Origin: Actinobacteria bacterium IMCC19121
Lineage (GTDB): Bacteria > Actinomycetota > Actinomycetes > Nanopelagicales > Nanopelagicaceae
Length of the DNA stretch: 64,000 nucleotides
Assembly: GCA_002284895.1 (NCBI GenBank)
Contig: CP015605.1
Location: 372,001 to 436,000, forward strand
Direction of reading: 5' to 3'
Part shown: piece by piece, positions 57,770-63,017 of the stretch
Layout of the letters: each line of letters starts with the position of its first letter
How positions within the stretch are numbered: the first letter of the stretch is position 1
Program-made: the position numbers and the translations under genes
The notes under the pieces: generated by a model
What the model saw: only the letters and a program-made list of their open reading frames with translations
Told to the model about the DNA's origin: nothing
The model's database searches: none

Positions 57770-59128
57770 ATGGGCAAAAAGAAGCGTAGAAGTCAATCAG
57801 TTCCTGTCTCGAAAGATATGGTGGTTAAGGGTTGGAGTAATCCAAAAACTATAAAACTCTTCAAGCAAATTGCCATATTCAGCATAACTGCTCAAGCAAG
57901 TCTTTATTTATTTAGTTTATATGGAGGCGGTTTCCATCTATTTAATTATATGTTTGTGGGTAAGGGGAGATTTGATGACCTTCGAAACGGCATACTTGAA
58001 AACGGATATTATTTCTCTCCCCAACTCCTGGAGGCGAAAGGGTTTGCGTCTGTTGCATCACCACCGATGGTATTTCTGTGGGAGATTTATGAGTATTTTG
58101 TAAAAACAGAATTTGCTCTCTGGGCTTCTTTGATTTTTACTTATCTAATCTTAGTTTATTTCGTTGGGAAAATAACAAGAAATGTAGCTGCCACAATATT
58201 CCTTTCGACTTTGCATCCAGTACTTTTTGCTTTTGCCCGAGGAAATCCAGATATGTGGATATTGATTGCTACTTGTATAGCCGGAATTGCACTCATACGA
58301 GGCAAAAATTGGGTTGTAGCAGTGATGTTTGGACTAATGAGTGCTCTCAAGTTTCCATTCTTACTTTTCGGACTTATATTTGTTGTGCGGAAAGATTTTA
58401 GGAATCTAGCATTACAAGCTTTTGTCACAATCGCCGCATTTCTCTTGCCGCTCACGACGAAGCCTTGGAGTATCCCTGATCAGATAAATGTTTTTAATGT
58501 CATAGTCGCAAGGTATTATCAAGGCTATGTAATTGGTGATGCGGGAATGTTGTTTAATGTGAGCTTATTTGGTCTTGAAAAGCCATTGATGTATTTGCTG
58601 CAAGGCAACAGCTTGCTCATAACAGACCAAGCTCGTGATGTGGCTATTGCTGCATTGACCGTGCAAATTATTTCACTGATTCTGTTTTCGATTTTGTTAT
58701 TAGCTGTTCCTATCTATCAACGGATAAAAACTAGCAAAACTTCGGATAAGCAATTCAAAAGTTCATCAGAGACAGATCTCTACTTAGTCTTCTTTTTATT
58801 CTTAGCCTTGCTTCAATGCCTATTTCCTCAAATCGCAGCTGAGTATCGTTTAGCCCAGCTCGCAATAATTATTGCCCTGCTTTATTCTGTGAGATCTAGG
58901 TTTCTAGAGAATCGCTTTAATCTCATTGTTTTGACATTAGTCTTCTTGCCAAAACATTTTCTAGTGATTAGCTTTCCGGCTGGAGTTGGCAACATTGTTA
59001 CAATTTCAAGCCTGATTAGCCCAGTGCTATTAATTGTTTTGGCATTTCGAATTCAAAGCTATCTCTCCCACAATGGCTTCTTCGCACCGATTCTAAATCT
59101 GACAATGCGTTCAAAGAATCGGACTTAG
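57770..59128 (+). CDS. GT-C membrane glycosyltransferase (GT87/DUF2029-like)
   Basis: A 452-residue polytopic protein with about ten hydrophobic segments after a basic N-terminus (GKKKRRSQSVPVSKD). The first large external loop carries FDDLRNGILENGYYFSPQLL, matching the acidic loop of GT-C enzymes, and FARGNPDMWILIATC resembles the GN.d....... motif of DUF2029 mannosyltransferases. Such enzymes use polyprenyl-phosphate sugars on the outer face, fitting the GtrB/GtrA pair upstream. It follows after a 106-base gap and may have its own promoter. Confidence 0.65.
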   Translation: MGKKKRRSQSVPVSKDMVVKGWSNPKTIKLFKQIAIFSITAQASLYLFSLYGGGFHLFNYMFVGKGRFDDLRNGILENGYYFSPQLLEAKGFASVASPPMVFLWEIYEYFVKTEFALWASLIFTYLILVYFVGKITRNVAATIFLSTLHPVLFAFARGNPDMWILIATCIAGIALIRGKNWVVAVMFGLMSALKFPFLLFGLIFVVRKDFRNLALQAFVTIAAFLLPLTTKPWSIPDQINVFNVIVARYYQGYVIGDAGMLFNVSLFGLEKPLMYLLQGNSLLITDQARDVAIAALTVQIISLILFSILLLAVPIYQRIKTSKTSDKQFKSSSETDLYLVFFLFLALLQCLFPQIAAEYRLAQLAIIIALLYSVRSRFLENRFNLIVLTLVFLPKHFLVISFPAGVGNIVTISSLISPVLLIVLAFRIQSYLSHNGFFAPILNLTMRSKNRT

Positions 59129-59534
59129 CCCCAGGCCCAAGAATCTGCCCGATTGCGGGGATGGAGGAAAACCTCCCCCAGCGCTTTACCCACTCTGGCC
59201 GCGGGGCCAGGAATTCATTGGCTGGTGTGGCCCTTTGGCCATGTTTTGCGCCTGTCTTAGCCAACTCCCAGCCACCAAGCGGCCTAAAACCCTCAATGCC
59301 GGCTTTAGGCTCGCCTATCCCATAGACTATGAGCCTGAGTCCGGCAGGGTTGATTTACGCTGCCATTCGGCGAAAGCCCTGCTTGCATATCCCTAACTAC
59401 GCTCAATCTCACGGCACCAGGCAAAGTCCTAAAAAAACTTTCCAAAAGGGCACAACATTTGCCCCCTAGCGGTGTCTTAACTAATAGAGGGCAAGACGTT
59501 GCTCATCTAGTACAAACTCGCGGGAGTTAATTAA
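59129..59534. ncRNA. GC-rich, hairpin-rich non-coding stretch; unassigned RNA or leader
   Basis: This 406-base gap has no credible gene. By hand count 137 of 240 bases (59161-59400) are G or C, far above the AT-rich genes around it. It holds several inverted repeats: GGAGG-AAAA-CCTCC (59163-59176), TGGCC/GGCCA around 59228-59241, GCCTAAA/TTTAGGC around 59282-59310, and GCAGGG/CCCTGC enclosing 59344-59382. It does not match the c-di-AMP, c-di-GMP, RNase P, tmRNA or SRP patterns I know. It is either a structured RNA or a long leader of the sigma-factor gene; the strand is not established. Confidence 0.4.
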
Positions 59535-60962
59535 ATGGCACTATTAAAGTCAAAGGCAGCGAAAGCAGCTGCGATGACTGATGCCACCCGCATTCTTGAA
59601 GCTGCTCCCGCATCAGCTCAAGGCTCTGCTGCAGACTGGTCTATCTCTCAGCTCTCAGCTCTCTACACAGAACACCGCACACAGCTTGTTTCACAGGCTC
59701 GCCGCATCACCCGCGATGAGGCAGAAGCCAATGAAGTAGTCCAGGAAGCATTCTTGAAGTTCATGCTTGCTGCCCCAGAGCTAGATTCGCCAGATCGTGC
59801 GATTGCATACCTTCGCACTTCTGTTACAAACCTATCTCTGAACATCATCCGCGCTCGCGGAGCACGTCCTAACTTGGTTGCTATCGATGCTGACACAACC
59901 CAGGAGCGTCTGAACGAGATCGCATCAGAGAATCACATCGATCTCGATACCTCTATTACTGCAGCAGAAGATGCCGCGATTATTCGCGAAGCTCTTTCTC
60001 GCCTCACATCAGATCAGCGCACAGCGCTAGTGATGTGGGAAATGGAAGGCCGCACAACAGAGGAGATCGCAACTGCGCTTAACACAAGCCCAGCAAATGT
60101 GCGCCACATCTTGGTCCGCGCTCGCAAATCTATGGTGCGCGTTCTTGAAGAGTGGGTTGTTGATGATGCAACTGGCTTAACTGCACTTAACGCCCTTTCA
60201 ACTACCTATAAGAAGGCATCTCAGATAGCCCAGAAGTCATCTAAGGCTGCTCTTTCTCTTCTTCTAGTTATCACAGCATTCCTTGGCTTTAACTCAATGA
60301 CTGGGAATGAAGGAAGTGTTGTTTCAACAATTCCTTCAATGTCATCTGTTGCAGGTGAAGCACCAGCAACTGCAGCTAGCCAGTCACCTTCAGCCACAGC
60401 CACCGCTGTTGCTAAGGCTGCAGCAACTGCTGCTGCCAAGAAAGCACAAACTGCTGCCCTTAACGCAAAGGTTGCAGCCCTTACATTTTTTGGTCTCAGT
60501 AAAGATGGAGTCCCAACTGGATTCTCTGTTACTGACTCCAACAATGTTGCCGGTGCTGGGCGTGTGACTAAGGGCATCACAACTGTTGGAGCTAATGGAA
60601 TCGTTGTTAACAACCAGTTCATTACATCCTCTGTTGGACCAAACGTTCTTATTGATCAACTCGTAACAGTTGATGGCACAGGAACACGTTATTCAGTCAA
60701 TGGCATCAACATTGGTTGGGTTGGTAACTGGAACTCTGTTGAAGTTAAATCAACAGATTCTTCTATTGAGCGCCTTGCCAATGGACAATACTTAATTACA
60801 GCCACCTCCAACCTTGGCTATTTAAATGAAGCAGATTTCGTAATCCCAACTGGGGGCCGCGGCTATGACCTAGCTGATGCACCTAAGTCGATTACAACAC
60901 GCATTCTCATGAATGCAGGCAAAACACAGGTACTTGCGCAAGCAGTGCAGGTGAACAACTAA
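59535..60962 (+). CDS. ECF-like sigma factor fused to a membrane helix and an exported domain
   Basis: A 475-residue protein. Residues about 40-108 are sigma region 2 (LYTEHRTQLVSQARRITRDE, VVQEAFLKF, AYLRTSVTNLSLNIIRARG) and about 147-203 region 4 (LSRLTSDQRTALVMWEMEG, TEEIATALNTSPANVRHILV, a helix-turn-helix). Basic residues 226-237 precede a single hydrophobic helix at about 238-253, which predicts N-in/C-out. Residues 260-310 are Ala/Ser/Thr-rich and 315-475 form an unrecognised, probably beta-rich domain. The ATG follows GGGAG. It is upstream of a surface-protein gene, and self-contained envelope sensing is suggested. Confidence 0.8.
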   Translation: MALLKSKAAKAAAMTDATRILEAAPASAQGSAADWSISQLSALYTEHRTQLVSQARRITRDEAEANEVVQEAFLKFMLAAPELDSPDRAIAYLRTSVTNLSLNIIRARGARPNLVAIDADTTQERLNEIASENHIDLDTSITAAEDAAIIREALSRLTSDQRTALVMWEMEGRTTEEIATALNTSPANVRHILVRARKSMVRVLEEWVVDDATGLTALNALSTTYKKASQIAQKSSKAALSLLLVITAFLGFNSMTGNEGSVVSTIPSMSSVAGEAPATAASQSPSATATAVAKAAATAAAKKAQTAALNAKVAALTFFGLSKDGVPTGFSVTDSNNVAGAGRVTKGITTVGANGIVVNNQFITSSVGPNVLIDQLVTVDGTGTRYSVNGINIGWVGNWNSVEVKSTDSSIERLANGQYLITATSNLGYLNEADFVIPTGGRGYDLADAPKSITTRILMNAGKTQVLAQAVQVNN

Positions 60963-60973
60963 AAATAGGTTTC

Positions 60974-61053
60974 CTCGTCGCGTCCGGATACACGATGGGG
61001 AATTTGGTGAATCAGCACGTGCGATTCATCGAGACGAGTTAAGAAATTAACTC
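60974..61053 (+). promoter_or_regulatory. Structured leader with competing hairpins upstream of the surface-protein gene
   Basis: CTCGTC (60974-60979) can pair with GACGAG (61033-61038), enclosing a TGAATC/GATTCA hairpin around the palindrome GCACGTGC. GAGTTAA (61036-61042) pairs perfectly with TTAACTC (61047-61053) around a GAAA tetraloop. The two structures share GAG 61036-61038, so they exclude each other. This could be a stabilising leader or a switch controlling the abundant surface protein. Confidence 0.4.
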
Positions 61054-61063
61054 AAAGCCAAGT

Positions 61064-61078
61064 TCAGGAAATTCCTGA
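61064..61078. promoter_or_regulatory. Perfect 15-base palindrome upstream of the surface-protein gene
   Basis: TCAGGAA-A-TTCCTGA is a perfect 7-1-7 inverted repeat, extendable to 21 bases with one mismatched pair. It ends 24 bases before the ATG at 61103. It may be an operator, or a further RNA hairpin of the leader that lies just upstream of the GAAAGGA ribosome site. Confidence 0.4.
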
Positions 61079-61102
61079 TCTTGACTAATCGAAAGGAAAC
61101 AA

Positions 61103-62911
61103 ATGTCTACAAAGACAACTTTCAAGCGCATAGCGCTTGTTACGGTTGCCGCAATGGGCTTTGGTCTTCTCTCAGTAGCTCCTTCAACGGCAACTACTCA
61201 GCAAGACACATTGACCGTATCATCAGCGACATCCACAATTGCAGCAGGATCCTCTGGATCAATTATTGTGACCCAGGGATTCCTTGGAGTTAGCTCAGAC
61301 ACAATGTCTGTGACTGCGTCACTAACATCAGCGCCAGCTACTAACGTAGCGATGCCTGTTGTTAGTACATCTCTAACCTACACAGGAACCGTGTTGGTCT
61401 CGGCAGATAATTTATCAGGTTACTTGACTGATACAGGTTCTGTTACTACATATAGCAAGGCGTCTGCTGAATTTAAAGTCACATTCGCACCTACTGTTCC
61501 AGGAACTTATGTAATTACATTTACACCTCACAACATAAGTTCTACAACAGGAAATCCGGTCACTGCAGCTACAAGAACTACTGTGGTACCACAGGCTGCA
61601 GCAGTTACATGGACAGTAACAGTTCCTTCAGGAACAGTTGGAGATACAACTTCAACTATTGTTACTCGTGCAGCCGGTGTTTCAACTGGTTCAGCGGCGA
61701 CAATTTCTGTAGCGTCAGGTAGTTCAACTGCTCAAGCTGCAACAATTGAAGTAACTCCACTTATCGCATCAGTTGCAACTACTGGTTCAACAATAATCAC
61801 TGCAACTGTTACAGGTGCAGGTACTGTTGGAGCTGGTACATCAGCAACTCAGGCATCAACTGGCCTGAAGACAGCAACTTATAATGGAACGGCTGCTGGC
61901 CTTGGTTATGTAACTCTTTGGGCCGATGGCACTTCCGGTTCATCATCTGTTGCAATTACCGTTAACGGAACTGCAGTTGGAACAGCTACAGCAACATTTA
62001 CTGGCGCTGTCGCAACAGTTACAGCAACACTGGCTAAGCCAGTTATTGCTGCTGGTTCAACTGCTACAGCAGGAGTAATCACAATAGTTGCTAAGGATGC
62101 AAACGGAAACGGAGTATCTGGAACAACGCTTTATGCAGTTTCATCAGGTTCATCAATTGTTAGTACATCTGTTACAACTGGCTCAGCTGGTGCGGCTTCA
62201 ATTAGCCTCGTCGGTAAGGTAGCTGGAACTAACACTGTAACTATTCAGAACGTTGCAGCTGGATCAACTGCTACTATTTCAGCAGCAGCTCTTTCAGTAC
62301 GCGTTGGTTCAAATGTTGAATCTTCAGTAACAATGAAACTTGACAAGGAAACATATGCTCCAGGTGATCAAGCTACTGTAACTGTAACTATCAAGGATGC
62401 AGCTGGAAATGCTGTTGTTGATGGTACATACGCTGCATTCGCAGCAGATGTAACAAGTACTCGCGCAATGTCTGCTGGTACATTGCCTACAGCTTCAATC
62501 ACTGTTGGATCAACAGTAGGTGTAAAGACCTACGTAGTTAACGTTCCTAACTCAGAAGGTGCTTTCACAATCTCAGCACTTCCTGGAGCAGGAATGTTAG
62601 GAGCAGGTTCTGCAGTTGCAATCTCAGCAACAGCAACTGTTACACCTTCAGCAGCAACTACTGCAGCAAATGAGGTAGCGCAAGCTGCAGCAGATGCAGC
62701 AGCAGAAGCAACTGATGCAGCAAATGCAGCAACTGATGCAGCAAATGCAGCAGCAGAAGCAGCAGATGCAGCAACAGCAGCAGCACAAGATGCCGCTGAT
62801 GCAGTTGCGGCTTTGAGTACTCAGGTTGCATCGCTAATCGCGGGTCTAAAGGCCCAATTGACGGCGTTAACAAACCTAGTAATCAAGATCCAGAAGAAGG
62901 TAAAGGCTTAA
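61103..62911 (+). CDS. Secreted Ala/Thr/Ser-rich surface protein with C-terminal coiled coil
   Basis: A 602-residue exported protein, with a strong GAAAGGA ribosome site. A signal peptide (about residues 1-30, TTFKRIALVTVAAMGFGLLS then APSTA) is followed by about 480 residues of beta-rich, Ig-like repeats such as VTVTIKDAAGNAVVDGTYA and ITIVAKDANGNGVSGTT. Residues about 525-602 are an Ala-rich heptad coil (TDAANAA repeats), then a more hydrophobic and basic end (KAQLTALTNLVIKIQKKVKA). No LPXTG or S-layer homology motif is seen. It resembles major surface proteins of acI actinobacteria and is a likely glycan acceptor (inference). Confidence 0.8.
   Translation: MSTKTTFKRIALVTVAAMGFGLLSVAPSTATTQQDTLTVSSATSTIAAGSSGSIIVTQGFLGVSSDTMSVTASLTSAPATNVAMPVVSTSLTYTGTVLVSADNLSGYLTDTGSVTTYSKASAEFKVTFAPTVPGTYVITFTPHNISSTTGNPVTAATRTTVVPQAAAVTWTVTVPSGTVGDTTSTIVTRAAGVSTGSAATISVASGSSTAQAATIEVTPLIASVATTGSTIITATVTGAGTVGAGTSATQASTGLKTATYNGTAAGLGYVTLWADGTSGSSSVAITVNGTAVGTATATFTGAVATVTATLAKPVIAAGSTATAGVITIVAKDANGNGVSGTTLYAVSSGSSIVSTSVTTGSAGAASISLVGKVAGTNTVTIQNVAAGSTATISAAALSVRVGSNVESSVTMKLDKETYAPGDQATVTVTIKDAAGNAVVDGTYAAFAADVTSTRAMSAGTLPTASITVGSTVGVKTYVVNVPNSEGAFTISALPGAGMLGAGSAVAISATATVTPSAATTAANEVAQAAADAAAEATDAANAATDAANAAAEAADAATAAAQDAADAVAALSTQVASLIAGLKAQLTALTNLVIKIQKKVKA
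62711..62752 (+). repeat. Perfect 21-base tandem repeat (2 copies) encoding a heptad
   Basis: Two identical copies of a 21-base unit (62711-62731 and 62732-62752) encode TDAANAA twice, within a larger GCA-rich stretch (about 62690-62800). Because the unit is seven codons long, gain or loss of copies keeps both frame and coiled-coil heptad phase. Confidence 0.9.
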
Positions 62912-62943: not shown

Positions 62944-62988
62944 CCGAAACCCGGTTCCCTCTTCGGAGGGGGCCGGGTTTCGGCCTTT
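62944..62988 (+). terminator. Strong intrinsic terminator after the surface-protein gene
   Basis: CCGAAACCCGG (62944-62954) pairs perfectly with CCGGGTTTCGG (62973-62983). The top of the stem is a second hairpin CCCTC-TTCG-GAGGG with a UUCG tetraloop. CCTTTCT follows. This long, stable hairpin suits a highly transcribed gene. Confidence 0.85.
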
Positions 62989-63017
62989 CTAGGCAATAGT
63001 TAAGTAGGCTTGTCATT

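Follow-up and report, generated by a model that had tools for sequence, protein, structure and literature searches.

It is already known that sigma factors can be fused to membrane parts. Among the actinobacterial ECF sigma factors, ECF48 and ECF53 have a C-terminal membrane extension from which release by proteolysis is expected (PMC8999054), and for the ECF52 protein SCO4117 of Streptomyces coelicolor, a truncated form of the protein supports proteolytic activation, and autoregulation has been suggested (PMC8999054, PMC5826349). In IutY (ECF243) of Pseudomonas putida, a sigma factor and a membrane-bound regulator are combined in one chain, and release is brought about by Prc and RseP (PMC8999054).

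Here, we describe a membrane-anchored ECF sigma factor of 475 aa that is encoded in the window, i.e., the whole stretch of 64,000 nucleotides that was analyzed (positions 372,001 to 436,000 of contig CP015605.1 of Actinobacteria bacterium IMCC19121, whose genome is a single 1.506-Mb contig). Like ECF48, ECF52, and ECF53, which have one or two C-terminal membrane helices, the window protein has one (residues 238-256), and with ECF52 it further shares the origin as an actinobacterial ECF sigma factor, a low-complexity linker (proline-rich in ECF52), and an outer domain. However, in ECF52 the helix is preceded by a zinc-finger anti-sigma domain and the outside part includes a carbohydrate-binding module, and the window protein has neither. 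A zinc-finger anti-sigma domain is also part of the descriptions of ECF48 and ECF53, and it is by these descriptions that the window protein, which lacks it, is set apart from both. IutY serves iron-starvation surface signalling via an outer-membrane transporter, whereas no transporter gene adjoins the window sigma gene. What is new is that the protein lacks an anti-sigma domain and has an outer domain to which no relatives are known, that its gene is strictly paired with one surface-protein gene, that a conserved leader lies in front of the latter, and that the upstream elements match the alleles. In the literature on surface layers of acI bacteria and on S-layer control by ECF factors, we found nothing directly on point. 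Judged from its sequence, the anchored sigma factor probably gives the cell a direct means of adjusting its outer coat.

The anchored sigma factor and its outer domain

The sigma gene is an exact single ORF on the forward strand (59535-60962), and its ATG is preceded by GGGAG, which resembles a Shine-Dalgarno sequence. Sigma region 2 (residues 43-109, 59661-59861; Sigma70_r2, PF04542, E = 1.7e-12) and sigma region 4 (residues 149-200, 59979-60134; Sigma70_r4_2, PF08281, E = 6.6e-13) both pass the curated Pfam cut-offs. Regions 3 and 1.1 are missing, with the Pfam r3 score far under its cut-off, and this is the architecture of ECF (group 4) factors. Furthermore, the protein scores 80.3 bits with TIGR02937 (cut-off, 42.9), and profile and fold searches with the N-terminal half led to SigH, SigL, SigE, AlgU, and similar ECF sigma factors. 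The identity as an ECF sigma factor is real, and a function in directing RNA polymerase to a specific promoter is predicted.

Region 4 is followed by a basic juxtamembrane segment (residues 206-237, 60150-60245) with the consensus TGLTALxALSTTYKKAxxxAxKSSK and by the membrane helix (60246-60302), which is the 19-mer of highest hydrophobicity in the protein and lies at the same homologous position in the relatives scored. Averaged over 53 sequences, the N-terminal side of the helix (residues 222-238) has a net charge of +3.7 and the C-terminal side one of −0.9, indicating an N-in/C-out topology with the sigma part inside the cell. The outside part (residues 257-475, 219 aa) starts with a linker of variable length that is rich in Ala, Ser, Thr, and Pro (residues 257-317, 60303-60485) and ends with a domain of approximately 158 residues (residues ~318-475, 60486-60959), which AlphaFold2 (AF2) confidently modelled as all-beta (mean pLDDT, 92). 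An earlier note on this DNA had read regions 2 and 4 of an ECF-type sigma factor, a basic segment, and one membrane helix from the sequence, and this reading is borne out by the Pfam scores, the hydropathy, and the charge distribution. Its estimate of about 220 outside residues, including an unrecognized domain of about 160, agrees with the lengths found here, and the topology and fold predictions that it had proposed gave the orientation and the all-beta model just described.

No relatives of the outer domain were recognized. The best Foldseek match in the PDB had E = 0.31, the best match among viral structure models had E = 0.018 with a low TM-score, and Pfam gave no match for the window copy and nothing convincing over 51 members of the family; descent from a known fold was therefore rejected. 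An origin from the surface protein was rejected as well (hhalign probability, 0.1%). In the full-length AF2 model, no contact of the sigma part with the remaining protein was predicted with confidence, and since pLDDT values were mostly <45 around the helix, the model is uninformative on autoinhibition there.

As the earlier note had observed, no anti-sigma gene adjoins the sigma gene; the neighbors encode a GT87-like glycosyltransferase and the surface protein. Residues 206-475 are free of Cys in all 53 sequences, and hence the zinc-binding anti-sigma domain of ECF48, ECF52, and ECF53 is absent; a Pfam search of the 475-aa protein did not reveal any zinc finger either. In the same genome, the query found two other sigma factors, and a small partner-like gene follows each of them.

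The mean pairwise identity within the 53 sequences is 74.8% in the juxtamembrane segment and 74.8% in the helix, as high as in sigma region 4 (74.3%), and falls to 36.7% just after the helix and to 20.8% in the linker (residues 263-308) before it reaches 44.7% in the outer domain. Conservation at the level of region 4 and above that of the outer domain argues that the helix is not a mere anchor. It would fit specific cleavage as well as a helix-helix contact, and a preference for one of them would be conjectural. A helix conserved in a protein without an anti-sigma domain would also be expected if the sigma factor were active while in the membrane and brought RNA polymerase and the operon there, so that transcription, translation, and export would be co-located and the outer domain would only tune the process; that the sole predicted target encodes a secreted protein would suit this arrangement. 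We nevertheless consider it unlikely, because a free sigma part has been shown for comparable proteins (IutY, PMC8999054) and because the outer domain would be poorly explained.

The search for the same fusion, which the earlier note had also suggested, found it in many species of the Nanopelagicaceae (freshwater acI), including "Candidatus Planktophila," and a chance fusion is therefore excluded. A profile of the outer domain matched 63 of 201 Nanopelagicaceae genomes (53 of the 99 good ones; 8 of 17 genera); among 297 sampled genomes of the class, it matched none that lie outside the family. The locus is present in all 17 single-contig Nanopelagicaceae genomes examined and is missing from many draft genomes of the family, which may in part be due to assembly gaps in a hypervariable island. 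Fifteen of the 17 encode the beta domain; the other two (G014 and G089) have a short outer tail instead, with the sigma domain, the juxtamembrane segment, and the helix intact. One could argue from these two that the outer domain does not sense at all but is a structural part of the envelope or a receptor and that the activity of the sigma factor is set by its expression level alone. To us, this is highly improbable, since both genomes retain everything up to the helix and since the C termini of their surface proteins differ too. Short-tail variants of the sigma factor (L123:1266-2279 and L124:4951-5907) adjoin surface proteins with a common alternative C terminus.

The best match to the sigma domain outside the Nanopelagicaceae (L016:1273-2812; 34% identity) comes from another family of the class. 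It has no membrane helix, and its gene is followed by one for a secreted protein; the pairing of sigma factor and surface protein is therefore possibly older than the fusion.

Sigma alleles and their upstream elements

Upstream of the sigma gene, on the same strand, lie a −35-like box, ACAACATTTG (59452-59461), and a −10-like box, GTGTCT (59472-59477), which together form the element designated type A, CAACATTTG-N10-GTGTCT. The distance between the boxes is 10 nt in 34 of 34 type-A loci, with 6 to 16 nt permitted in the search. The type-B element, AAATGTCCGTTTTGTCC...CGCKACA-N14-CGTAG, keeps its own spacing of 14 nt in 35 of 36 loci. The element of the window is preceded by approximately 300 nt without a long ORF (59130-59450) that are partly conserved in close relatives, and the G+C content is 0.51 in 59000-59999 compared to ~0.40 in the preceding genes.

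The sigma domain occurs in two alleles, A (in the window) and B, that are ~47% identical and differ in dozens of diagnostic residues. These include residues of the region 2.3-2.4 and 4.2 recognition segments, whose placing we take from general knowledge of ECF factors. Allele type and upstream element agreed in 52 of 52 loci, a count that leaves out one locus cut by the end of its contig. On a tree of the membrane helix and the outer domain, the allele type changes 6 times, with at least 3 changes forced by well-supported branches, counts that are affected by shared ancestry. Three loci (L035, L038, and L074) have allele B, yet their outer domains are 69 to 83% identical to that of the window. 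The match of allele and element, together with the repeated changes of allele, suggests that promoter and sigma domain move as a cassette onto the same sensor. Such swapping would be consistent with a sigma factor that transcribes its own gene; however, promoter and sigma domain are neighbors, and linkage, i.e., co-transfer alone, could also have kept the match.

The search of three type-A closed genomes for the strict type-A element gave a single copy in every one, and each of these copies lies at the sigma gene; one match elsewhere in G068 is probably due to chance. On this basis, the predicted regulon looks like the surface-protein operon alone, and the sigma factor may have further targets with looser boxes. 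ECF sigma factors with outer domains are often general regulators of envelope stress, and SCO4117 is pleiotropic (PMC5826349); the window protein might accordingly sense damage of the wall or the membrane and control a wider regulon in which the surface protein is just one target. The single-copy element and the strict tie of the sigma gene to one gene speak against this, and we regard it as unlikely. The direct sensing of the envelope that the earlier note had put forward is refined here, in that the signal probably comes from the condition of the surface protein rather than from envelope stress in general.

The surface-protein gene and its leader

In all 47 loci with enough sequence, the first gene downstream of the sigma gene encodes the surface protein, whereas the upstream genes vary, and this supports the earlier proposal that the surface-protein gene is the likeliest target. 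In the window, this predicted target and partner is a secreted, hypervariable protein of 602 aa (61103-62911, forward strand). Across the loci, the protein has an MSTKT..KR-like, signal-peptide-like start and a conserved C-terminal segment, and the variable middle between these conserved ends is weakly Ig-like. By these sequence features, it is a candidate S-layer protein, and the formation of a two-dimensional lattice on the cell is putative. A GC-rich hairpin with a T-rich tail (62944-62990), which was read directly from the sequence and was not listed by the scan that also covered promoters, is the likely end of the transcript. No convincing further copy of the surface gene was found in the genome of the window.

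As a rule, the surface gene is followed by genes for a Wzy_C O-antigen ligase and a UDP-sugar dehydrogenase. In the window, a long run of sugar-nucleotide, glycosyltransferase, and NeuB-like genes (5000-58000) precedes the operon, and a Wzy_C-like gene follows it; given these neighbors, the surface protein is possibly glycosylated. The location at a glycan island and the recombination of the locus, as well as truncated leaders on extra surface genes without a sigma gene, could mean that the two genes are neighbors only because they move together within a hypervariable island. The surface gene would then be driven by a housekeeping promoter that lies within the sigma gene and controlled by the leader, and the sigma factor would have its targets elsewhere. 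This appears improbable, since the gene order outlasts repeated swaps of the sigma domain and since a signal for an internal promoter is absent: the gap between the two genes contains no match to a sigma-70-like promoter, and the 3′ end of the sigma ORF shows no reduction in synonymous variation (at few sites). An internal promoter for the surface gene was rejected on these grounds.

The 140 nt between the two genes (60963-61102, forward strand) form a structured leader. It folds far better than shuffled sequences (z = −5.1), and 24 of the 31 predicted pairs show compensatory changes in 46 leaders, a count that is affected by the common ancestry of the sequences. In the alignment, 97.3% of the cells at predicted pairs do pair compared to 75.1% in shuffles, and the covariation score is 0.677 compared to 0.245 in shuffles and ≤0.14 in slid versions. 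Fold and covariation define helix 1 with a CCGGAU loop (60971-61002), helices 2 and 3 with a AGCACGUGC apex (61004-61032), and helix 4 (61056-61086), which ends a few nucleotides 5′ of the Shine-Dalgarno sequence GAAAGGA of the surface gene (61091-61097; invariant in 46 leaders). An extra stem (61036-61053) is seen in the fold and differs in length among relatives. The many G-U pairs favor an RNA structure and disfavor DNA operator palindromes as the only explanation of the stems. Rfam 15 (E ≤ 10) returned only chance-level matches far under the gathering scores, and the leader was therefore rejected as a known riboswitch. The near-invariant loops UCCGGA and GCACGUGC (60971-61032) are, by eye, self-complementary, and loop-loop pairing of two RNA copies is conceivable.

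The leader model has one convincing copy in the genome of the window, is found in 17 of 17 single-contig Nanopelagicaceae genomes, and matches 73 of 201 genomes of the family, usually directly 3′ of the sigma gene. Some truncated leaders sit at extra surface genes. One such gene (L050:3500-3930) lies 5′ of the sigma gene; it keeps leader helices 2 and 4, lacks helix 1, and has no sigma gene of its own. The leader, the allele-specific element, the invariant downstream gene, and the conservation of the helix at the level of region 4 had not been part of the earlier note.

A model for the control of the surface protein

The distances between outer domains correlate with those between surface-protein C termini when the sigma domain is controlled for (r = 0.515, p = 0.001), and the correlation is r = 0.346 when the leader is controlled for as well. 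Furthermore, the short-tail genomes G014 and G089, which belong to different genera, have an alternative surface-protein C terminus in common. Both observations fit a recognition of the anchor segment of the surface protein by the outer domain; however, the outer domain and the surface protein are linked too, and linkage could explain both. Proteolytic release of the sigma part is plausible by analogy with IutY and SCO4117, and the conserved helix would agree with it. The genome of the window encodes one M50 site-2 protease, as do 14 of 14 control genomes; no site-1 protease was identified.

In our model, to which we give somewhat less than an even chance, the surface-protein operon is self-contained and autoregulated, and the anchored sigma factor senses the state of the coat and is freed by cleavage. 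The sequence basis of the model is the domain order, the invariant gene order, the covarying leader, and the allele-specific elements. From these, we infer autoregulation by binding of the sigma factor to the element, read-through into the surface gene, sensing of the surface protein as the signal of the outer domain, and proteolytic release. The sigma factor, with its N terminus inside and its C terminus outside, would use the two-box element at 59452-59477 as the promoter of its own gene, and the transcript would read through the leader into the surface gene and end at the terminator near 62990. The leader would give the surface-protein mRNA its own control of stability or translation, but it could also answer a signal that is unrelated to the sigma factor. 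Outside, the beta domain would follow the condition of the surface protein, most probably that of its conserved C-terminal anchor segment. Loss of the coat or damage to it would free the sigma part, most simply by a cut in or near the conserved helix, and transcription would rise. A further-reaching proposal is that a single protein chain both detects whether the coat is complete and drives transcription of the coat gene without any anti-sigma factor, with a new class of leader RNA and a promoter/sigma cassette that is swapped in evolution; this is possible but more doubtful.

If true, this would be about the shortest route from the outside of the cell to a promoter, in a highly abundant group of freshwater bacteria, and the sigma factor would control a hypervariable surface protein that phages and grazers likely meet. 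A further gain from the locus is a structured, conserved RNA that Rfam does not list, and the matched alleles of sigma factor and promoter would be a natural set and a natural re-wiring experiment. One carrier of the locus, "Candidatus Planktophila" isolate LanE-43 (L029, OX376642.1), has been cultured, and phages of it have been isolated (PMC10202952).

The arrangement of surface genes in some relatives recalls a different system. In the slpA/slpB switching of Lactobacillus, one surface gene is expressed and one is silent, and to our knowledge, no adjacent sigma factor is part of that system. The silent gene is slpB (PMC6015585). Some relatives of the window have inverted pairs of surface genes, which flank a tyrosine recombinase gene (L053:7375-12721, L042:7429-12460, and L127:2524-7201), whereas only one surface gene is present in the genome of the window. 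The sequences suggest an invertible switch of surface proteins that has a single expression site by the sigma gene. In L053, inverted repeats of 182 nt (95%) span the 3′ half of the leader together with the signal peptide, and others of 285 nt (90%) lie at the C-terminal end.
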